The notes: generated from the sequence alone by a model not told the origin. Shown: positions 36,265 through 42,277, counted from the first letter of the stretch. The stretch is DNA of 64,000 bases from Streptomyces sp. S4.7 (GCF_010384365.1 NZ_CP048397.1:2914001-2978000), one strand, 5' to 3'. Made by a program: numbers and translations.

Positions 36265-36649
36265 GAGGAGCGGGGCCCGCCCCCGGCCGGGCCGCGCTCG
36301 TGTCTCCGCCCCGCTCAGTCCGGTCGGCGCCCACCGCTCGCGCGATCAGCCACCAGACCTCCCGTCTGCCGTCGACCCACACACCGTGCAGGTCGACGGC
36401 AGACGGGACGAGGGCAAGGAAATGGCGCGTAGTCGTGGCAGACGTGTTGTAGCCGACGGGCGGCGCAGACTCGAAGTCCCACCCACGCGGGTGTCTGGCT
36501 CTGCGTTGGAAAATCACTCAACTAGGAGCAAACCCGGAGGTGCTTGGAGCACAATGCACGCGTAGGCGGCGCTCGTGCGTCACACGCCTGTGTGCACGAC
36601 AGCCTTGGCACACTCAGATGGCCAGGAATGGGTGACGGGGGAGAAAGAG
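36265..36649. other. Island left intergenic region with 18-bp hairpin
   Basis: No convincing gene in 385 bp. It holds a perfect 18-bp inverted repeat (36360-36377 and 36391-36408, 13-nt loop). A minus-strand frame (36176-36517) has some protein-like composition in its first 60 codons but no recognised family and ends inside the EamA repeat, so I do not call it. Confidence 0.55.
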
Positions 36650-37822
36650 ATGGCCGATCCTACCGAATTGATGCTGAAAGATCTCGCGCAGAGTTACACG
36701 GAAAGACAAGTCTCCAACGCATTTTTGCGACTTTATGCGGATGACACTCAATTTGGTCGCGCTTTCGCCAGCATTCATGAGCGTCTGAACGGGCATTTCG
36801 AATCCATTAACGACAGAGCTGGAACAACTCGCCACTATTGGGCCGATTCAAGCAGAGAGATGATCACACTCTGCAAAGAAACGGACGACATTCTCCAATC
36901 CCTTAAGAGTGTCGGCATAGAAGTGCGGCTCACGGACACCTATGCGGCAGCCATAGAAAACTGTCAATCATGGCTCACGCAAAGCGGAGGCAGCGCCGTA
37001 CCGGATGACTTCGAAAAGATCAAAATCATCAAGTACGAGCCCATCCTGTCTCGCCCCGGCACCGAACTTCACTTGAAAAAGTCCACCGCACGCCCCCGGT
37101 TGCAGTTGATCGGCGAGGGGTCATATGCGCATGTGTTCTCCTTCATTGACCCGGACTACGGCATCAAATTCGCGGTCAAGCGCGCCAAAAAGAACATGGA
37201 CGAACGCGATCTCCACCGCTTCCGACAAGAGTTCGACATTCTAAAGCGTCTGAGTTTCCCATACGTTGTTGAGGTGTATCAGTACGATGCAACTCGCCAC
37301 GAGTACAAGATGGAGTTTTGTGAAGCCACGCTTCGCGACTACATCAAAAGACGCAATAACATGTTGCCCTTTGCGGCACGAAAGAGAATTGCGCTGCAAT
37401 TCCTGTACGGCATCAACTACATCCACACCAAAGACCTACTTCATCGCGACATCAGCCTTCAAAATGTCTTGGTGAAAACCTTCGACGGTGGAGCCGTTTT
37501 GGTGAAGCTTTCGGACTTCGGCCTCGCCAAAGACAGGACCTCTGAATACACTCGAACGAAAACAGAAATGCGCGGGACAATCCGAGATCCTCTACTGGTC
37601 AGCTTCAAAGAGTATGACGCACGCAATGAGATCTATTCGATTGGGCATGTTCTTTCCTATATCTTTACCGGCAAGGAAGCCTTGATGTCTCAAGCGGACG
37701 CAGCGAGCGACATTGTGAGAAAATGCGTGGCGCACGATGTTGCTAACCGGTACCAGACCGTTCGTGGCCTAATCGGTGACGTTGAGAAACTGGAAGCGAC
37801 CCCTACGGACGCGCCCGCCTGA
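36650..37822 (+). CDS. Ser/Thr protein kinase with unknown N-terminal domain, low GC
   Basis: 390 residues. The N-terminal 150 residues match nothing I recognise and look helical. The kinase domain has a glycine loop GEGSYAHVF (155-163), Lys177 in FAVKRAKK, catalytic HRDISLQN (265-272), DFG (289-291) and EIYSIGHVLSYIFTG in place of the usual D-x-W/Y-S-x-G. No membrane span or PASTA repeat, so it is cytosolic and unlike PknB. ATG at 36650 has GGGGGAG upstream. GC content and codon use are far lower than any neighbour (many AAA, ATT, TTT codons), so it was acquired recently, possibly from outside Streptomyces. Similar lone kinases occur in phage-defence islands; function here is unproven. Confidence 0.88.
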   Translation: MADPTELMLKDLAQSYTERQVSNAFLRLYADDTQFGRAFASIHERLNGHFESINDRAGTTRHYWADSSREMITLCKETDDILQSLKSVGIEVRLTDTYAAAIENCQSWLTQSGGSAVPDDFEKIKIIKYEPILSRPGTELHLKKSTARPRLQLIGEGSYAHVFSFIDPDYGIKFAVKRAKKNMDERDLHRFRQEFDILKRLSFPYVVEVYQYDATRHEYKMEFCEATLRDYIKRRNNMLPFAARKRIALQFLYGINYIHTKDLLHRDISLQNVLVKTFDGGAVLVKLSDFGLAKDRTSEYTRTKTEMRGTIRDPLLVSFKEYDARNEIYSIGHVLSYIFTGKEALMSQADAASDIVRKCVAHDVANRYQTVRGLIGDVEKLEATPTDAPA

Positions 37823-37862: not shown

Positions 37863-38063
37863 TCACCCGGTTCTGCACTGCCTTGTCGTTGCGACGTGGG
37901 TCAGCATCGTGATCTCGCCGGCTGCGGCGGGCGTTAACTCCAGTCGCACCACGCCCAATCCGTCTATTGAGGCGCTGGCGCGGAGTTGACCTCCGGTCGT
38001 GTCGATGCCTGCCGCTGTTAGCGCTACGGTCAGCTCAGTTACGACAAGTGGCCGCAATTTCAT
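37863..38063 (-). CDS. Small hypothetical protein
   Basis: 66 residues: MKLRPLVVTELTVALTAAGI, QLRASASIDGLGVVRLELTP. The pattern looks like a compact alpha-beta protein rather than chance coding. No clear ribosome-binding site and no family recognised. It is opposite in direction to the kinase and recombinase genes. Apart from it, 37823-38277 shows nothing. Confidence 0.35.
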   Translation of the reverse strand: MKLRPLVVTELTVALTAAGIDTTGGQLRASASIDGLGVVRLELTPAAAGEITMLTHVATTRQCRTG

Positions 38064-38277
38064 CAGATGCAACACTGCGGTTGGGGTGCATATCAACAGC
38101 CGCCTTCCCCCTATGTCCTGGTCAGCACCCTGTGCGGGTTCGGTGTGGATGGCTCGCCGGGCCGCTTGAGATGCGGCGAATGCGAGCCGGCATGCCTTCT
38201 GAGCTGGGAACTTGTCAGGTGATTACATCTGATGAAAGATTCCTTCGTCTGATGTAGGCGGCGGAGGGTAGTCATTC

Positions 38278-39396
38278 GTGGGTGGGAACAGGCTCGCGCC
38301 GGGGGCTGTTGGGCTGCACCTGGTAGGTGACCTGCCGCTGCTGCGGCCGGACGAGCAGGTGTTCACGGCGATGCTGGACGGCTGGCGCAACCAGCAGCTC
38401 GCGCGGAACCTGGCGTTCTCCACGATCGAGGGCCGGGAGAAGGTGGTACGCGCCTTCGTCCGGCACGCGGACACGTTCCCCTGGGCCTGGTCGCCGCAGA
38501 TGGTCGACGAGTGGCTGGGCGACCTGCGGTCGGTACGGCACCTGCGCCGTTCCACACTCCGCAACTACCAGGGATCGGTCCGGTCCTTCTGCTCCTTCAT
38601 CACCGATCCCGCCTACGGATGGGCGGTGACCTGCGAGGAGCGTTTCGGCGCCCACCCGGTGCAGGTGGTGCACGAGTGGAACACCGCGGTGCACGTGGAG
38701 GAAGCCGAGGCAGACCCCAGTAAACGGGCCTTCACCCGGCAGGAGTTGCAGGCGTTCTTCGACCACGCCGACGACCAGGTCGGCAGGGTCCGCGGCCGGG
38801 GCCGCAAGGGCTGGCTGCCCGCATTCCGCGACGCGATGCTGTTCAAGACCGCGTACGCCTTCGGCCTGCGCCGCAACGAGACGCGGATGCTGGACTCGGT
38901 CGACTTCGGACGCAACCCCGAAGGTCCTGAGTTCGGCGAGTACGGCGTCCTCTACGTCCGCCACGGGAAGGCGAAGAAGGGCTCGCCGCCCAAACGCCGC
39001 AGTGTGCTGACCGTCTTCGACTGGTCGGCGGAGATCCTCCAGCAGTGGAACGAGGAGGTACGTCCGCTGTTTCCCACCGCCGGCTCCGGGGCTCTGTGGC
39101 CGTCGGAGCGATCGGCCCGGGTCGGCTTCTCCCAGATGAACACCCGGTTCACCACCTACCGGGACGCCCTCGGCCTGGACGACGGACTCGACTTCCACTC
39201 CTTCCGCAGGTCCTACGTCACCCACCTGATCGAGAAGGGCATGGACGCCCGGTTCGTCCAGGAACAGGTCGGGCACGAACACGCATCCACGACCGCGATC
39301 TACACATGCGTGTCCTCCGACTTCCGCACCCGCACCCTGCGCAGAGCGTTGGACGCGACGATGCAGGCCGCTCTGCGGCCGGCGAGGAGGGCTTGA
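38278..39396 (+). CDS. Tyrosine recombinase (integrase)
   Basis: 372 residues. SAM-like core-binding domain (about 25-115, including STIEGREKVVRAFVRHADTF) and a catalytic domain with the full set R198 (FGLRRNE), K231-K234 (HGKAKKGS), H307-x-x-R310 (FHSFRRSYVTHL), H333 (GHEHASTTA) and Tyr342 (IYTCVS). The enzyme should therefore be active. GTG start. It is the first gene of a coupled trio: its TGA overlaps the ATG of the HTH gene by one base, and that gene overlaps the zinc-ribbon recombinase. Likely drives integration or excision of the island. Confidence 0.92.
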   Translation: MGGNRLAPGAVGLHLVGDLPLLRPDEQVFTAMLDGWRNQQLARNLAFSTIEGREKVVRAFVRHADTFPWAWSPQMVDEWLGDLRSVRHLRRSTLRNYQGSVRSFCSFITDPAYGWAVTCEERFGAHPVQVVHEWNTAVHVEEAEADPSKRAFTRQELQAFFDHADDQVGRVRGRGRKGWLPAFRDAMLFKTAYAFGLRRNETRMLDSVDFGRNPEGPEFGEYGVLYVRHGKAKKGSPPKRRSVLTVFDWSAEILQQWNEEVRPLFPTAGSGALWPSERSARVGFSQMNTRFTTYRDALGLDDGLDFHSFRRSYVTHLIEKGMDARFVQEQVGHEHASTTAIYTCVSSDFRTRTLRRALDATMQAALRPARRA

Positions 39397-39731
39397 TGAA
39401 ACGCCAGGTCAGCTACCAGTGGCGACTGCGCGAGGTGATGGCCACCCGCGGCATCTTCGCCGCCTCCGACCTCTCCCCGCTGCTCGCCGAACGCGGCATC
39501 GAGCTGTCCTCGGTCCAGGTCTGGCGCCTGGTCACCCAGACTCCCGAACGGCTCTCCCTGCCGGTCCTGGCCGCGCTCTGCGACATCCTCGACGTCACCC
39601 CCACCGACCTGATCGCCACCCGGGCCGAGAACGTCGCCCCGCGCCGCACCGCCGCCTCCGGCGGCGCCGACGTCGTGGACCTGGCCAACACCATCCGGCC
39701 CAAGCGCGCCCGGATCACCCCCGACTCGTGA
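39396..39731 (+). CDS. Cro/C1-type HTH protein of the recombination module
   Basis: 111 residues: LREVMATRGIFAASDLSPLL, AERGIELSSVQVWRLVTQTP, LPVLAALCDILDVTPTDLI is a YdaS/HTH_26-like helix-turn-helix. A basic tail follows (RPKRARITPDS). Good ribosome-binding site GAGGAGG before the ATG. Overlaps both flanking genes, so the three proteins are made together, which suggests a role as recombination directionality factor or as repressor of the module. Confidence 0.85.
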   Translation: MKRQVSYQWRLREVMATRGIFAASDLSPLLAERGIELSSVQVWRLVTQTPERLSLPVLAALCDILDVTPTDLIATRAENVAPRRTAASGGADVVDLANTIRPKRARITPDS

Positions 39732-41224
39732 GCCCGGCCTACGACAGCCGCGAGAAATACGAGCGGTGGCACATACGCACCTGCGCACGCTGCGGCCGCC
39801 GCGCAGCCAAGTCCGCGAACTGGTCAGACGGACCTATCTGCCGCACCTGCTATGAACGGGCCACGCGGGACCGAGGCCGCTGCCCCGGCTGCAAAACCGA
39901 GCGGCTGCTTCCCGGCCGCAACGTGGCGGGAACCGCGATCTGCCGGGATTGCGCAGGCATCAGCCGCGACTTCTTCTGCGACCGCTGCGGCTTCGAGGGC
40001 CTACTCCTGGGCGGACGGCTCTGCGAACGCTGCACCCTCTCCGACCAGCTCACCGCCCTCCTGGACGACGGCACCGGCTGCATCCACCCACAGTTGATCC
40101 CGCTGCACCAGCTTCTGGTGAGCCTGGACCGTCCGAAGAGTCGGCTTATCTGGCTCCGCAACCGGCAAGTCCCGGCACTCCTGCGAGACCTCGCCACCGG
40201 AACAGTGCCACTCACACACGACGCCATCCAGGCCCTGCCGAACTGGCGGACCGCCGCCTACCTGCGCGACCTGCTCATGGACAGCGGCGTCCTGCCTCAC
40301 CTCGACCGGCGACTCCTTCTGTTCGAGCGGTGGCTCGCCCAGCGAATCGCCACCACCGCCGACACCGAACACGCCCGCATACTCCAGCACTTCGCCACCT
40401 GGCACCAGCTTCGCAAGCTCCGAGCCAAGGCGGCCAAGGGCCCGTTGGGCACGAGTACGACGCAGGAATGCCGCCAGCAGATCACCCAGGCTGGTGCCTT
40501 CCTGGTCTGGCTCGCCGCCCGGCACGTCGCGCTGAGCGCCTGCACCCAGACCGATCTCGATGCCTGGCACGCGGAGAAGTACGCCACCCGGCGACCTGCC
40601 CAGGCGTTCTTGCGATGGTGCATGGAGACCCGCCGGATGCCGCGGCTGATCATCCCGAACCACCCGACCACCAACCCCCACCCGATGGGCCAACACCAGC
40701 GCGTCACCGCCCTGCAACGGGTCCTCGCCGACGACAGCACCGCGCTGAGAGTCCGGGTCGCGGCCTGTCTGGTCCTGCTGTTCGCCCAACCCGTCAGCCG
40801 CATCGTTCGCATGACCACCGACGACGTTCTCCGCGACGGCCAGTGCGTCACACTCCGCCTTGGCGACCCGCCCACTCCAGCCCCTGAGCCGGTGGCCGAC
40901 CTCCTGCTCGACTACCTCCAAGCGCTGCCCGCCAGCACCCCCGCCATCAACCAGAACTCGCCCTGGCTGTTCCCCGGTCGCCGAGCGAGCCAGCCCATGA
41001 ACCCCGCCACCCTGCGCGACGCACTACGAAAACTCGGCATCCCTGTCGAGAAAGGCCGCACCTCGGCCATTCGCCAGCTCGTCCTCCAGGCCCCGGCGCC
41101 CGTCATCGCCCAGGCACTGGGCTACCACGACAAGAGCACCACCCGCATCGCCAACGACGCCGGAGCCCCCTGGAAGAACTACGCACCCGGCGACCACAAC
41201 CGGCGATCTCCACGGCTCCGGTGA
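39728..41224 (+). CDS. Zinc-ribbon protein with degenerate tyrosine-recombinase domain
   Basis: 498 residues starting at a GTG that overlaps the HTH stop (GTGA). The N-terminal 102 residues carry six CxxC pairs (19/22, 38/41, 52/55, 72/75, 84/87, 99/102), enough for three zinc ribbons. The rest resembles a tyrosine recombinase: core-binding helices (AGAFLVWLAARHVALSACTQ), FAQPVSRIVRMTTDDVL (Arg) and a C-terminal SAIRQLVLQAPAPVIAQALG. The HxxR histidine is replaced (TSAIRQ) and the place of the nucleophile Tyr reads STTRIANDAG; a Tyr occurs later in WKNYAPGDH. It is thus probably an accessory DNA-binding partner rather than a self-sufficient recombinase. Confidence 0.82.
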   Translation: MSPAYDSREKYERWHIRTCARCGRRAAKSANWSDGPICRTCYERATRDRGRCPGCKTERLLPGRNVAGTAICRDCAGISRDFFCDRCGFEGLLLGGRLCERCTLSDQLTALLDDGTGCIHPQLIPLHQLLVSLDRPKSRLIWLRNRQVPALLRDLATGTVPLTHDAIQALPNWRTAAYLRDLLMDSGVLPHLDRRLLLFERWLAQRIATTADTEHARILQHFATWHQLRKLRAKAAKGPLGTSTTQECRQQITQAGAFLVWLAARHVALSACTQTDLDAWHAEKYATRRPAQAFLRWCMETRRMPRLIIPNHPTTNPHPMGQHQRVTALQRVLADDSTALRVRVAACLVLLFAQPVSRIVRMTTDDVLRDGQCVTLRLGDPPTPAPEPVADLLLDYLQALPASTPAINQNSPWLFPGRRASQPMNPATLRDALRKLGIPVEKGRTSAIRQLVLQAPAPVIAQALGYHDKSTTRIANDAGAPWKNYAPGDHNRRSPRLR

Positions 41225-41244
41225 GGCACCGGCCGACCGTGAGA

Positions 41245-41865
41245 TTACGCCTGCAGGCGCTTGATCCAAGGGTGAGGTCCGTACGTCTTGGAGATCGCAT
41301 CGACGAGCCAGCTTCGCTGCTGATCCGTGAGCACGGGCAGCGCAGCGTCGAAGTCCTCTTCGTCCTTGGGCCGAGGTGTCTTGGCTTTGTAGTAGAGCTG
41401 CACGTCCAGGGCGAGAAAGGGAACACCGTCAGCCGAGGTCATCCCCAGCATGCTGATCGGCCTACGCACCCGGGGGTCACGCCGTGACACCCATTCCTGG
41501 CCGCAGGACTCGTCGATCATGATCTGGATACGCCAGGGATCGTCGGGCCCGGGCCGGCACCAGATGTCGTGAACTTCCAGCGACAAGACCTCGTCCAACG
41601 CCCACGGACGCAGGCTTCCCGGTGGATCGGCGGCCCACCATTGCCAGCCCGACAGAGCCTGCTGGGCCACGAGCTGATCACGCCGCAGCAACAGGACATC
41701 GATGTCCCCATGGCTCCGGATTCGGCGGCCCACCGCGAGCTCGATCGCGAAGCCCCCAGCCACCCACCAGCAGGACTCCAAGCCGGAGAACCTCGCGACA
41801 ACCTCGCTCAGAGAGGCGGGATCCCACCTGCCAAACGGAGCCCGGAGACGTGTCATGCCGCTCAT
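41245..41865 (-). CDS. Nucleotidyltransferase, aminoglycoside-2''-adenylyltransferase-like
   Basis: 206 residues: WWVAGGFAIELAVGRRIRSH then GDIDVLLLRRDQL, the ANT/MNT nucleotidyltransferase motif with two catalytic Asp, followed by PFLALDVQLYYKAKTPRPKD and RSWLVDAISKTYGPHPWIKR. Enzymes with this pattern adenylylate aminoglycosides or are uncharacterised. Two ATGs, 41865 and 41856, are 9 nt apart; the GGGAG upstream is better spaced for 41856. It stands alone, convergent to the recombination module. Confidence 0.8.
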   Translation of the reverse strand: MSGMTRLRAPFGRWDPASLSEVVARFSGLESCWWVAGGFAIELAVGRRIRSHGDIDVLLLRRDQLVAQQALSGWQWWAADPPGSLRPWALDEVLSLEVHDIWCRPGPDDPWRIQIMIDESCGQEWVSRRDPRVRRPISMLGMTSADGVPFLALDVQLYYKAKTPRPKDEEDFDAALPVLTDQQRSWLVDAISKTYGPHPWIKRLQA

Positions 41866-42277
41866 TCTCCCGTGGCTGCCCTTGAGCCGACGCACACCAC
41901 TGTTGATCACGAGCAGTAACAGACACGAGAGCCGAAAGGCCGTCAGGTTCAGGAACACCGACTACTCGATAAACGACTCTTACCAGTCTTGGGATGCGTC
42001 CCGCCAGCTGGCCACGTAGTTCACGCCCCAGACACAGAGAAGTGCATCAGCGTTCAGGTCGTCAGCGTCGGATTCGTCGCTCCCGGTGCTGTTCGCCCCT
42101 ACAAGTCCCCCTCTACGCAGGCCGACTGGCAATTCACCATGTCCGGTCACGCAGCAGAAGACACGACGACGGCCCCGGTGCCTCGGCACCGGGGACCGTG
42201 ATCGTTGGAGAGCGGTCCCTAGCCGGACGCCCCCAGTTGCTCTCAGGCCCGGGTGGTCCAGTGTTGTGTGAGTAGTC
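41866..42277. other. Intergenic region with terminator at 42173-42194
   Basis: Short frames here lack coding character. The perfect 10-bp inverted repeat 42173-42182 / 42185-42194 with a 2-nt loop can end transcription of the minus-strand gene at 42278. Confidence 0.5.

Follow-up and report, generated by a model that had tools for sequence, protein, structure and literature searches.

A stretch of 64,000 nucleotides (nt) from Streptomyces sp. S4.7 (NZ_CP048397.1:2914001-2978000; the window) contains three coupled genes, ORF1, ORF2 and ORF3 (ORF, open reading frame), which we describe here as the core of a transposon. ORF1 and ORF2 share 1 nt (TGATG) and ORF2 and ORF3 share 4 nt (GTGA); the coordinates agree exactly with those in an earlier note on this DNA, which had reported overlaps of 1-4 bases. 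The PF00589 domain of ORF1 contains the complete R-K-H-R-H-Y set of the tyrosine recombinases (YRs), R198, K231, H307xxR310, H333 and Y342, which is invariant in 42/42 homologues of the family alignment. Thus, ORF1 belongs to the YRs. According to its HTH_26 match, ORF2 is a Cro/C1-type helix-turn-helix (HTH) protein. Among the loci searched, 56 complete trios have the identical gene order and nearly all of them have the -1/-4 nt overlaps, showing that the arrangement is not due to chance. The earlier note had suggested a search for this order in actinobacteria and would have given up its reading if the genes were not conserved together; the 56 trios keep them together.

ORF3 consists of three zinc ribbons followed by a YR fold. 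Eleven of the twelve cysteines in its six CxxC pairs are present in 46/46 homologues, and C102 in 45/46. The match to PF00589 is weak (E 3e-4) and under Pfam's cut-off, and an ORF3 profile gave only weak matches to PDB sequences. An AlphaFold2 model (mean predicted local distance difference test score, pLDDT, 86.6; predicted template modelling score, pTM, 0.57) was compared with known structures. Over residues ~213-493, it matched XerA in Foldseek (E 1.6e-6) and XerA, XerH and Tn1549 Int in VIA (Z 15.4, 15.3 and 14.0, respectively), and it also resembles Cre and an integron integrase. A profile-profile alignment of ORF3 with ORF1 was unusable, and the catalytic positions were therefore assigned from the part of ORF3 matched by Pfam and from the alignment of 46 homologues. 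By this assignment, the Arg-I position is S/T in 42/46 homologues, the HxxR position is His in 0/46, and no Tyr was found at the expected nucleophile position. Together, the fold matches and the lost residues indicate that ORF3 has three zinc ribbons in front of a genuine recombinase fold with a degraded catalytic site, and it is very probably catalytically dead. The three zinc ribbons, the replaced HxxR histidine and the altered Tyr region, noted before in this one protein, are thus family-wide, and the full catalytic set is indeed confined to the first gene. The structure prediction proposed at that time yielded a YR fold and not the unrelated protein that would have spoken against the trio.

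The genome of Streptomyces sp. S4.7 contains ORF3 three times with 100% identity. The corresponding copies, A (in the window), B and C, are identical over exactly 3943 bp and lie at unrelated sites, all their flanks being different. Copy B (L008:6976-10918) adds exactly 3943 bp to an empty site. The ends were defined again by pairs of near-identical elements at different sites, and the elements L013/L089 and L042 have identical left and right ends with other cargo between them. No obvious terminal inverted repeat was found in the 3943-bp element. These sequence comparisons, which also underlie the insertion properties and target preference described below, indicate that positions 38046-41988 are almost certainly a transposon with these ends. 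Its layout, as seen in the alignments, comprises a fixed left end, a palindromic leader of ~230 nt, three overlapping genes, exchangeable cargo and a fixed right end (Table 1).

The cargo zone between ORF3 and the right end contains one or two small genes in relatives; elsewhere these encode AAA_33, SUKH-4, methyltransferase, DUF4240, APH, nucleotidyltransferase, SDR or GNAT proteins. In Kutzneria, units of 3238 bp consist of the trio without cargo, and some form tandem arrays in which the right end of one unit directly abuts the left end of the next. These cargo-free units indicate that the trio alone is the complete machinery of a mobile element. The earlier note had proposed a distinct integration machine, a two-subunit recombinase with a built-in HTH factor. 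This holds insofar as the trio appears to drive a mobile element, and the ORF1-ORF3 complex and the role of the HTH protein are putative. The mapping of boundaries that it had recommended gave ends fixed across the three copies and nearly all relatives. The note had covered the genes only and had missed the transposon with its defined ends, its footprint-free insertion and its preference for transposon inverted repeats.

Table 1. Features of copy A and its left flank (positions in the window)
Feature	Position	Strand	Evidence or remark
Whole transposon, 3943 bp	38046..41988	+	Three 100% identical copies, same ends, differing flanks
Left end AAGTGGCCGCAATTTCATCAGATGCAA	38046..38072	+	First identical base of all three copies; motif in nearly all relatives
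Palindrome 1, CATCAGATG (CATCNGATG)	38061..38069		Fixed leader position; putative ORF2 binding
Palindrome 2, CATCTGATG	38226..38234		Fixed, about -52 from ORF1
Palindrome 3, CGTCTGATG, one mismatch	38246..38254		Fixed, about -32 from ORF1
ORF1, catalytic YR, 372 aa, GTG start	38278..39396	+	PF00589, E 3e-18
ORF2, small HTH protein, 111 aa	39396..39731	+	HTH_26, E 1e-13; kept between ORF1 and ORF3
ORF3, three zinc ribbons and catalytically degraded YR fold, 498 aa	39728..41224	+	Pfam, family alignment, predicted structure
ORF3 zinc-ribbon region, six CxxC, residues 19-102	39782..40033	+	Conserved Cys (eleven of twelve in 46/46; C102 in 45/46)
ORF3 YR-fold region, residues 213-493	40364..41206	+	Foldseek and VIA structural matches
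Cargo, aminoglycoside-2''-adenylyltransferase-like (ANT(2'')-like), start codon uncertain	41245..41865	-	PF10706, E 9e-8
Right end GAACACCGACTACTCGATAAACGACTCTTACCAGTC	41953..41988	+	Last identical base of all three copies; ACC[AG]GT[AC] in relatives
Target half-site left of copy A, AGCG + 22 nt, Tn3-type repeat register, outside the element	38020..38045	+	Top 0.014% of background windows

Several further observations concern the element and its surroundings. A remnant in the same genome (L005:1081-1716) has the left end and ORF1 residues 1-63 fused to ORF3 residues 436-492 in one open frame. In Kutzneria sp. 744 (L116:3996-14166), cargo-free 3238-bp elements form an array, each right end being joined to a left end, and a partial copy follows one of these elements. 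Two trio elements of different subtypes are present at L042:2905-11169, their left ends facing each other ~1.3 kb apart and nearly the same repeat preceding each. The 98.4% identical elements L049:4336-8205 and L113:7311-11178 differ at left-end bases 1 and 6 and at the fourth-from-last base of the right end, as though bases at the extreme ends were changeable on movement. Directly upstream of the transposon and outside it, a protein-kinase-like gene of low GC content (about 51-56%) is located at 36575-37822. The element had no match to phage records or in PADLOC.

In a sample of the phylum, ORF3 matches were detected in 23/396 genomes and 16/236 genera, and trio hosts include Streptomyces, Nonomuraea, Arthrobacter, Saccharopolyspora, Nocardia and Kutzneria. 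The identities of ORF1/ORF2/ORF3 to the S4.7 trio are about 86/88-90/49-50% at L089, L092 and L099 and 69/60/71% at L056. From one lineage to another, ORF3 and the ORF1-ORF2 pair are thus exchangeable. There is also a sister subfamily II (L010, L122, L123, L124, L125 and L120:3538-8400), with a paralogue at 7.67-7.68 Mb in the same genome. Its target lies just after the catalytic Tyr codon of other tyrosine-recombinase genes (LGH..TT..Y). At L120:3538-8400, the subfamily II element is inserted in ORF1 of a relative at the active-site Tyr codon, so that one trio transposon interrupts another.

A degenerate 26-nt pattern starting with AGCG, GGCG, ACCG or similar precedes the element in 34/47 left flanks of relatives. 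By pattern search, intact sites of this kind (class 1) were found in 44/199 genomes, and a reversed-pattern control gave 0. The empty sites were often facing pairs, 1-13 kb apart. Between the facing repeats, a Tn3-family transposase match was present in 4/6 fetched pairs, one example being a 1059-aa protein (PF01526, E 3.8e-127), indicating that the class-1 target is the terminal inverted repeat of Tn3-family transposons. At L063, the opposite repeat is present and intact (32/34 matches), and at L056 the Tn3 transposase match starts about 105 bp from the element. The class-2 target consists of facing repeats of at least 36 bp, about 4-10 kb apart (G115, G057, G125 and G146). Judged from their flanks, most relatives are located at one register and in one orientation within the terminal inverted repeats of transposons, of which the majority belong to the Tn3 family. 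Scored with the relatives' pattern, copies A, B and C rank among the best 0.014%, 0.025% and 0.17%, respectively, of the background windows; copies B and C thus look like off-target insertions at repeat-like sequence. A comparable off-target insertion, in ureC, is made by IS5075 (PMC8269217).

The insertion of copy B splits a cytochrome P450 gene, of which many relatives have an intact version. When its flanks were joined, the resulting 600 nt aligned without gaps to the intact gene in 8/9 relatives examined; the ninth showed 4 gap positions in a 602-column alignment. Leaving out the element exactly restored the recombinase reading frames at subfamily II insertions, and for the nested insertion the restored host gene was checked against intact homologues. 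The reading frame at the Kutzneria site L115 was open after joining of the flanks, and at L042, L113 and L047 joining gave exactly the empty repeat, GTTCC directly followed by CCGAGG. For copy C, no relative spanning the junction was found. These alignments show insertion without target duplication, loss or footprint. A footprint hidden in the constant ends was also considered and was ruled out by the direct joining of the tandem copies and by the conservation of the right-end bases among relatives. Exchange of both strands by a YR over a spacer of 6-8 bp would be expected to produce a footprint or to require a common core. Since neither a footprint nor a shared core was seen, the single-point crossover fits one-strand exchange followed by replicative resolution.

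The leader contains CATCNGATG palindromes at three fixed places, at a density of 11.1/kb compared to 0.44/kb in the genes. They are probably ORF2 sites. In addition, a bridge-RNA-like guide in the leader was considered. In a comparison of long exact words, the longest word shared with the target was 6.68 nt for the own leader and 6.68 nt for other leaders, so that such a guide is not supported. The leader fold was not unusual (z -1.43) and there was no Rfam match within the window.

In the ORF3 tree, the class-2 elements form one clade (100/100), whereas in the ORF1 tree monophyly of class 2 is rejected (AU test, p 0.00046). Because the target class follows ORF3 and not ORF1, the zinc ribbons and the dead YR domain of ORF3 may recognize the target, and we give ORF3 an even chance of being the target selector. 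In the following model, we infer what ORF2 and ORF3 do as well as the one-strand mechanism. ORF1 would supply all cleavage. ORF3 would be its non-cleaving partner, recognizing the target and probably also the element ends. ORF2 would bind the palindromes at the left end and the promoter, thereby limiting expression and shaping the end complex. A circular form with joined right and left ends would recombine with the target; one strand pair would be exchanged at one phosphate, the dead partner would block the second exchange, and replication would resolve the junction, as in integrons. We regard this model of an autonomous YR transposon, with ORF1 as the cutter, ORF3 as a dead selector and one-strand exchange, as fairly likely overall. 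One-strand exchange is in itself a tentative proposal, and we are somewhat more doubtful that an exchangeable dead zinc-ribbon recombinase both picks the target and forces its active partner into one-strand, footprint-free insertion.

Several points weigh against this model. The ORF3 of L015/L131 belongs to the class-1 clade and the element sits in a class-2 repeat, showing that ORF3 does not strictly dictate the target, and the tree signal comes down to two class-2 clades, a grouping noticed before it was tested. Copies B and C lie outside real inverted repeats, and a search for the partner repeat of copy A did not find it (best candidate 26/46, runners-up 25). W482 and Y485 are kept in 44/46 ORF3s, and ORF3 may thus have a displaced nucleophile. 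Exact junctions alone fall short of proving one-strand exchange, and transposition, the circle and the protein complex are proposals derived from sequence.

ORF1 could instead perform an ordinary two-strand exchange with a 6-8 bp spacer, the exact junctions resulting from mismatch repair of the spacer or from a shared cryptic core. To our knowledge, all well-studied integrative YRs but the integron integrases exchange both strands, and the differing terminal bases of L049 and L113 would suit an exchange of this kind. However, copies A, B and C have no core common to both ends, the junctions are hybrid at one identical point in these copies as well as in several relatives, and no base is added or lost at insertion. 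We therefore consider two-strand exchange rather improbable. Slightly less probable still is that ORF3 is an operon repressor outside the recombination complex and that the element is moved by ORF1, either unaided or with ORF2 as a possible directionality factor. The zinc ribbons and degenerate YR fold would suit DNA binding, YR-fold repressors exist (phage phi3T SroF is among the structural matches of ORF3, Z 10.3 and 9.8), and regulation is possible for ORF2 and ORF3 alike. However, a repressor would not explain why the target class tracks ORF3 and not ORF1. ORF3 is also present in every complete trio, including cargo-free elements, although a repressor could be kept too.

The frequent location of relatives in Tn3-type repeats could also mean that Tn3-family transposons carry the element as a passenger, with a Tn3 transposase recognizing the flanking repeats and moving it in trans. 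The element ends, however, lie inside the repeat and are constant where there is no repeat, as for copy B in the P450 gene; there is no 5-bp duplication around the element, and identical units are found in recombinase genes (subfamily II) and in tandem. The copies outside repeats rule against a passenger, which we hold to be scarcely credible.

If the proposed autonomous transposon with ORF3 as selector is correct, a swap of ORF3 would redirect the element, away from Tn3-type repeats and into the repeats of other transposons or perhaps, as in the sister subfamily, the active-site codon of recombinase genes. A separable target module could lead to retargetable recombinases. Scarless insertion with a preference for the ends of other transposons would provide a safe, travelling harbour. 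The RIT, Tn554, SE and GInt systems leave open why several recombinase-fold proteins are needed; in the trio, the split is sharp, with one enzyme and one dead partner that target choice appears to track. The trio also explains genes on actinobacterial plasmids that are annotated separately as 'integrase', 'HTH regulator' and 'hypothetical protein' or 'recombinase XerD'.

RIT elements (ritA-B-C) also have three overlapping genes in one operon, but all three encode recombinases, whereas the trio encodes one active YR, one HTH_26 protein and one YR-fold protein without catalytic residues; the difference from RIT pointed out by the earlier note is thus borne out. Tn554 (tnpA-tnpB-tnpC) resembles the trio in having three coupled genes for two YR-fold proteins and one small protein. 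However, both of its recombinases contain the catalytic motif and the small gene is last (PMC10214605), whereas the trio has one motif-bearing recombinase and the HTH gene in the middle. The actinobacterial transposons described by Van Houdt et al. 2012 (PMC3414803) occur in the same hosts as the trio, are likewise multicopy and combine a long with an ordinary YR gene. Of the two proteins, the long one (611-828 aa) is encoded next to the short one and contains a potential catalytic motif (PMC3414803), whereas ORF3 lacks the catalytic residues and the HTH gene intervenes, so that we rejected assignment to this class. Plasmid pNOCA01 contains an annotated pair of this shape at 109.9-113.5 kb, which by its annotation is probably the entry in the Van Houdt table, and a separate trio at 24.4-27.6 kb. 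The circular element of RHA1 (PMC12169178) was also considered and is unrelated to the trio.

The target choice of IS5075/IS4321 (IS1111/IS110) is like that of the trio element, but their recombinase is unrelated. The IS110 family employs a bridge RNA (PMC11208160), and the search for long exact words found no such target-matching RNA in the trio leader. Integrons offer a mechanistic parallel. Integron cassettes insert at a single crossover point, and the junctions of the trio element are compatible with an integron-like one-strand exchange. For the integron integrase, PMC4792948 describes a YR reaction in which resolution by replication is required in place of the second strand exchange. In contrast to the cassette arrays of integrons, the trio element is one unit carrying its own recombinase.

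In make-up, the SE elements (intA-tfp-intB-srap) and GInts (ginA-B-C-D), reported from Gamma- and Betaproteobacteria (PMC10214605), are nearest to the trio. They too are small, apparently non-mobilizable integrative elements with a coupled operon near one end, and this operon includes a YR-fold protein without the RHRY residues (Tfp or GinC; PMC10214605), whose counterpart by these features is ORF3. However, they have four genes with two RHRY recombinases, whereas the trio has three genes, one RHRY recombinase and no srap/ginD, and trio-only elements exist. Zinc ribbons, of which ORF3 has three, are unmentioned in PMC10214605. The 6-bp footprint of SEs and the Tn554 family (PMC10214605) is absent from the gap-free empty-site alignments and the direct tandem joins of the trio elements. 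Searches of open-licence papers found no description of the trio, and one in the subscription literature is possible. At least one tested defining feature separates the trio elements from each of the known classes, RIT, Tn554, SE, GInt and that of Van Houdt, and the trio elements appear to be a new, apparently undescribed family of actinobacterial YR transposons.
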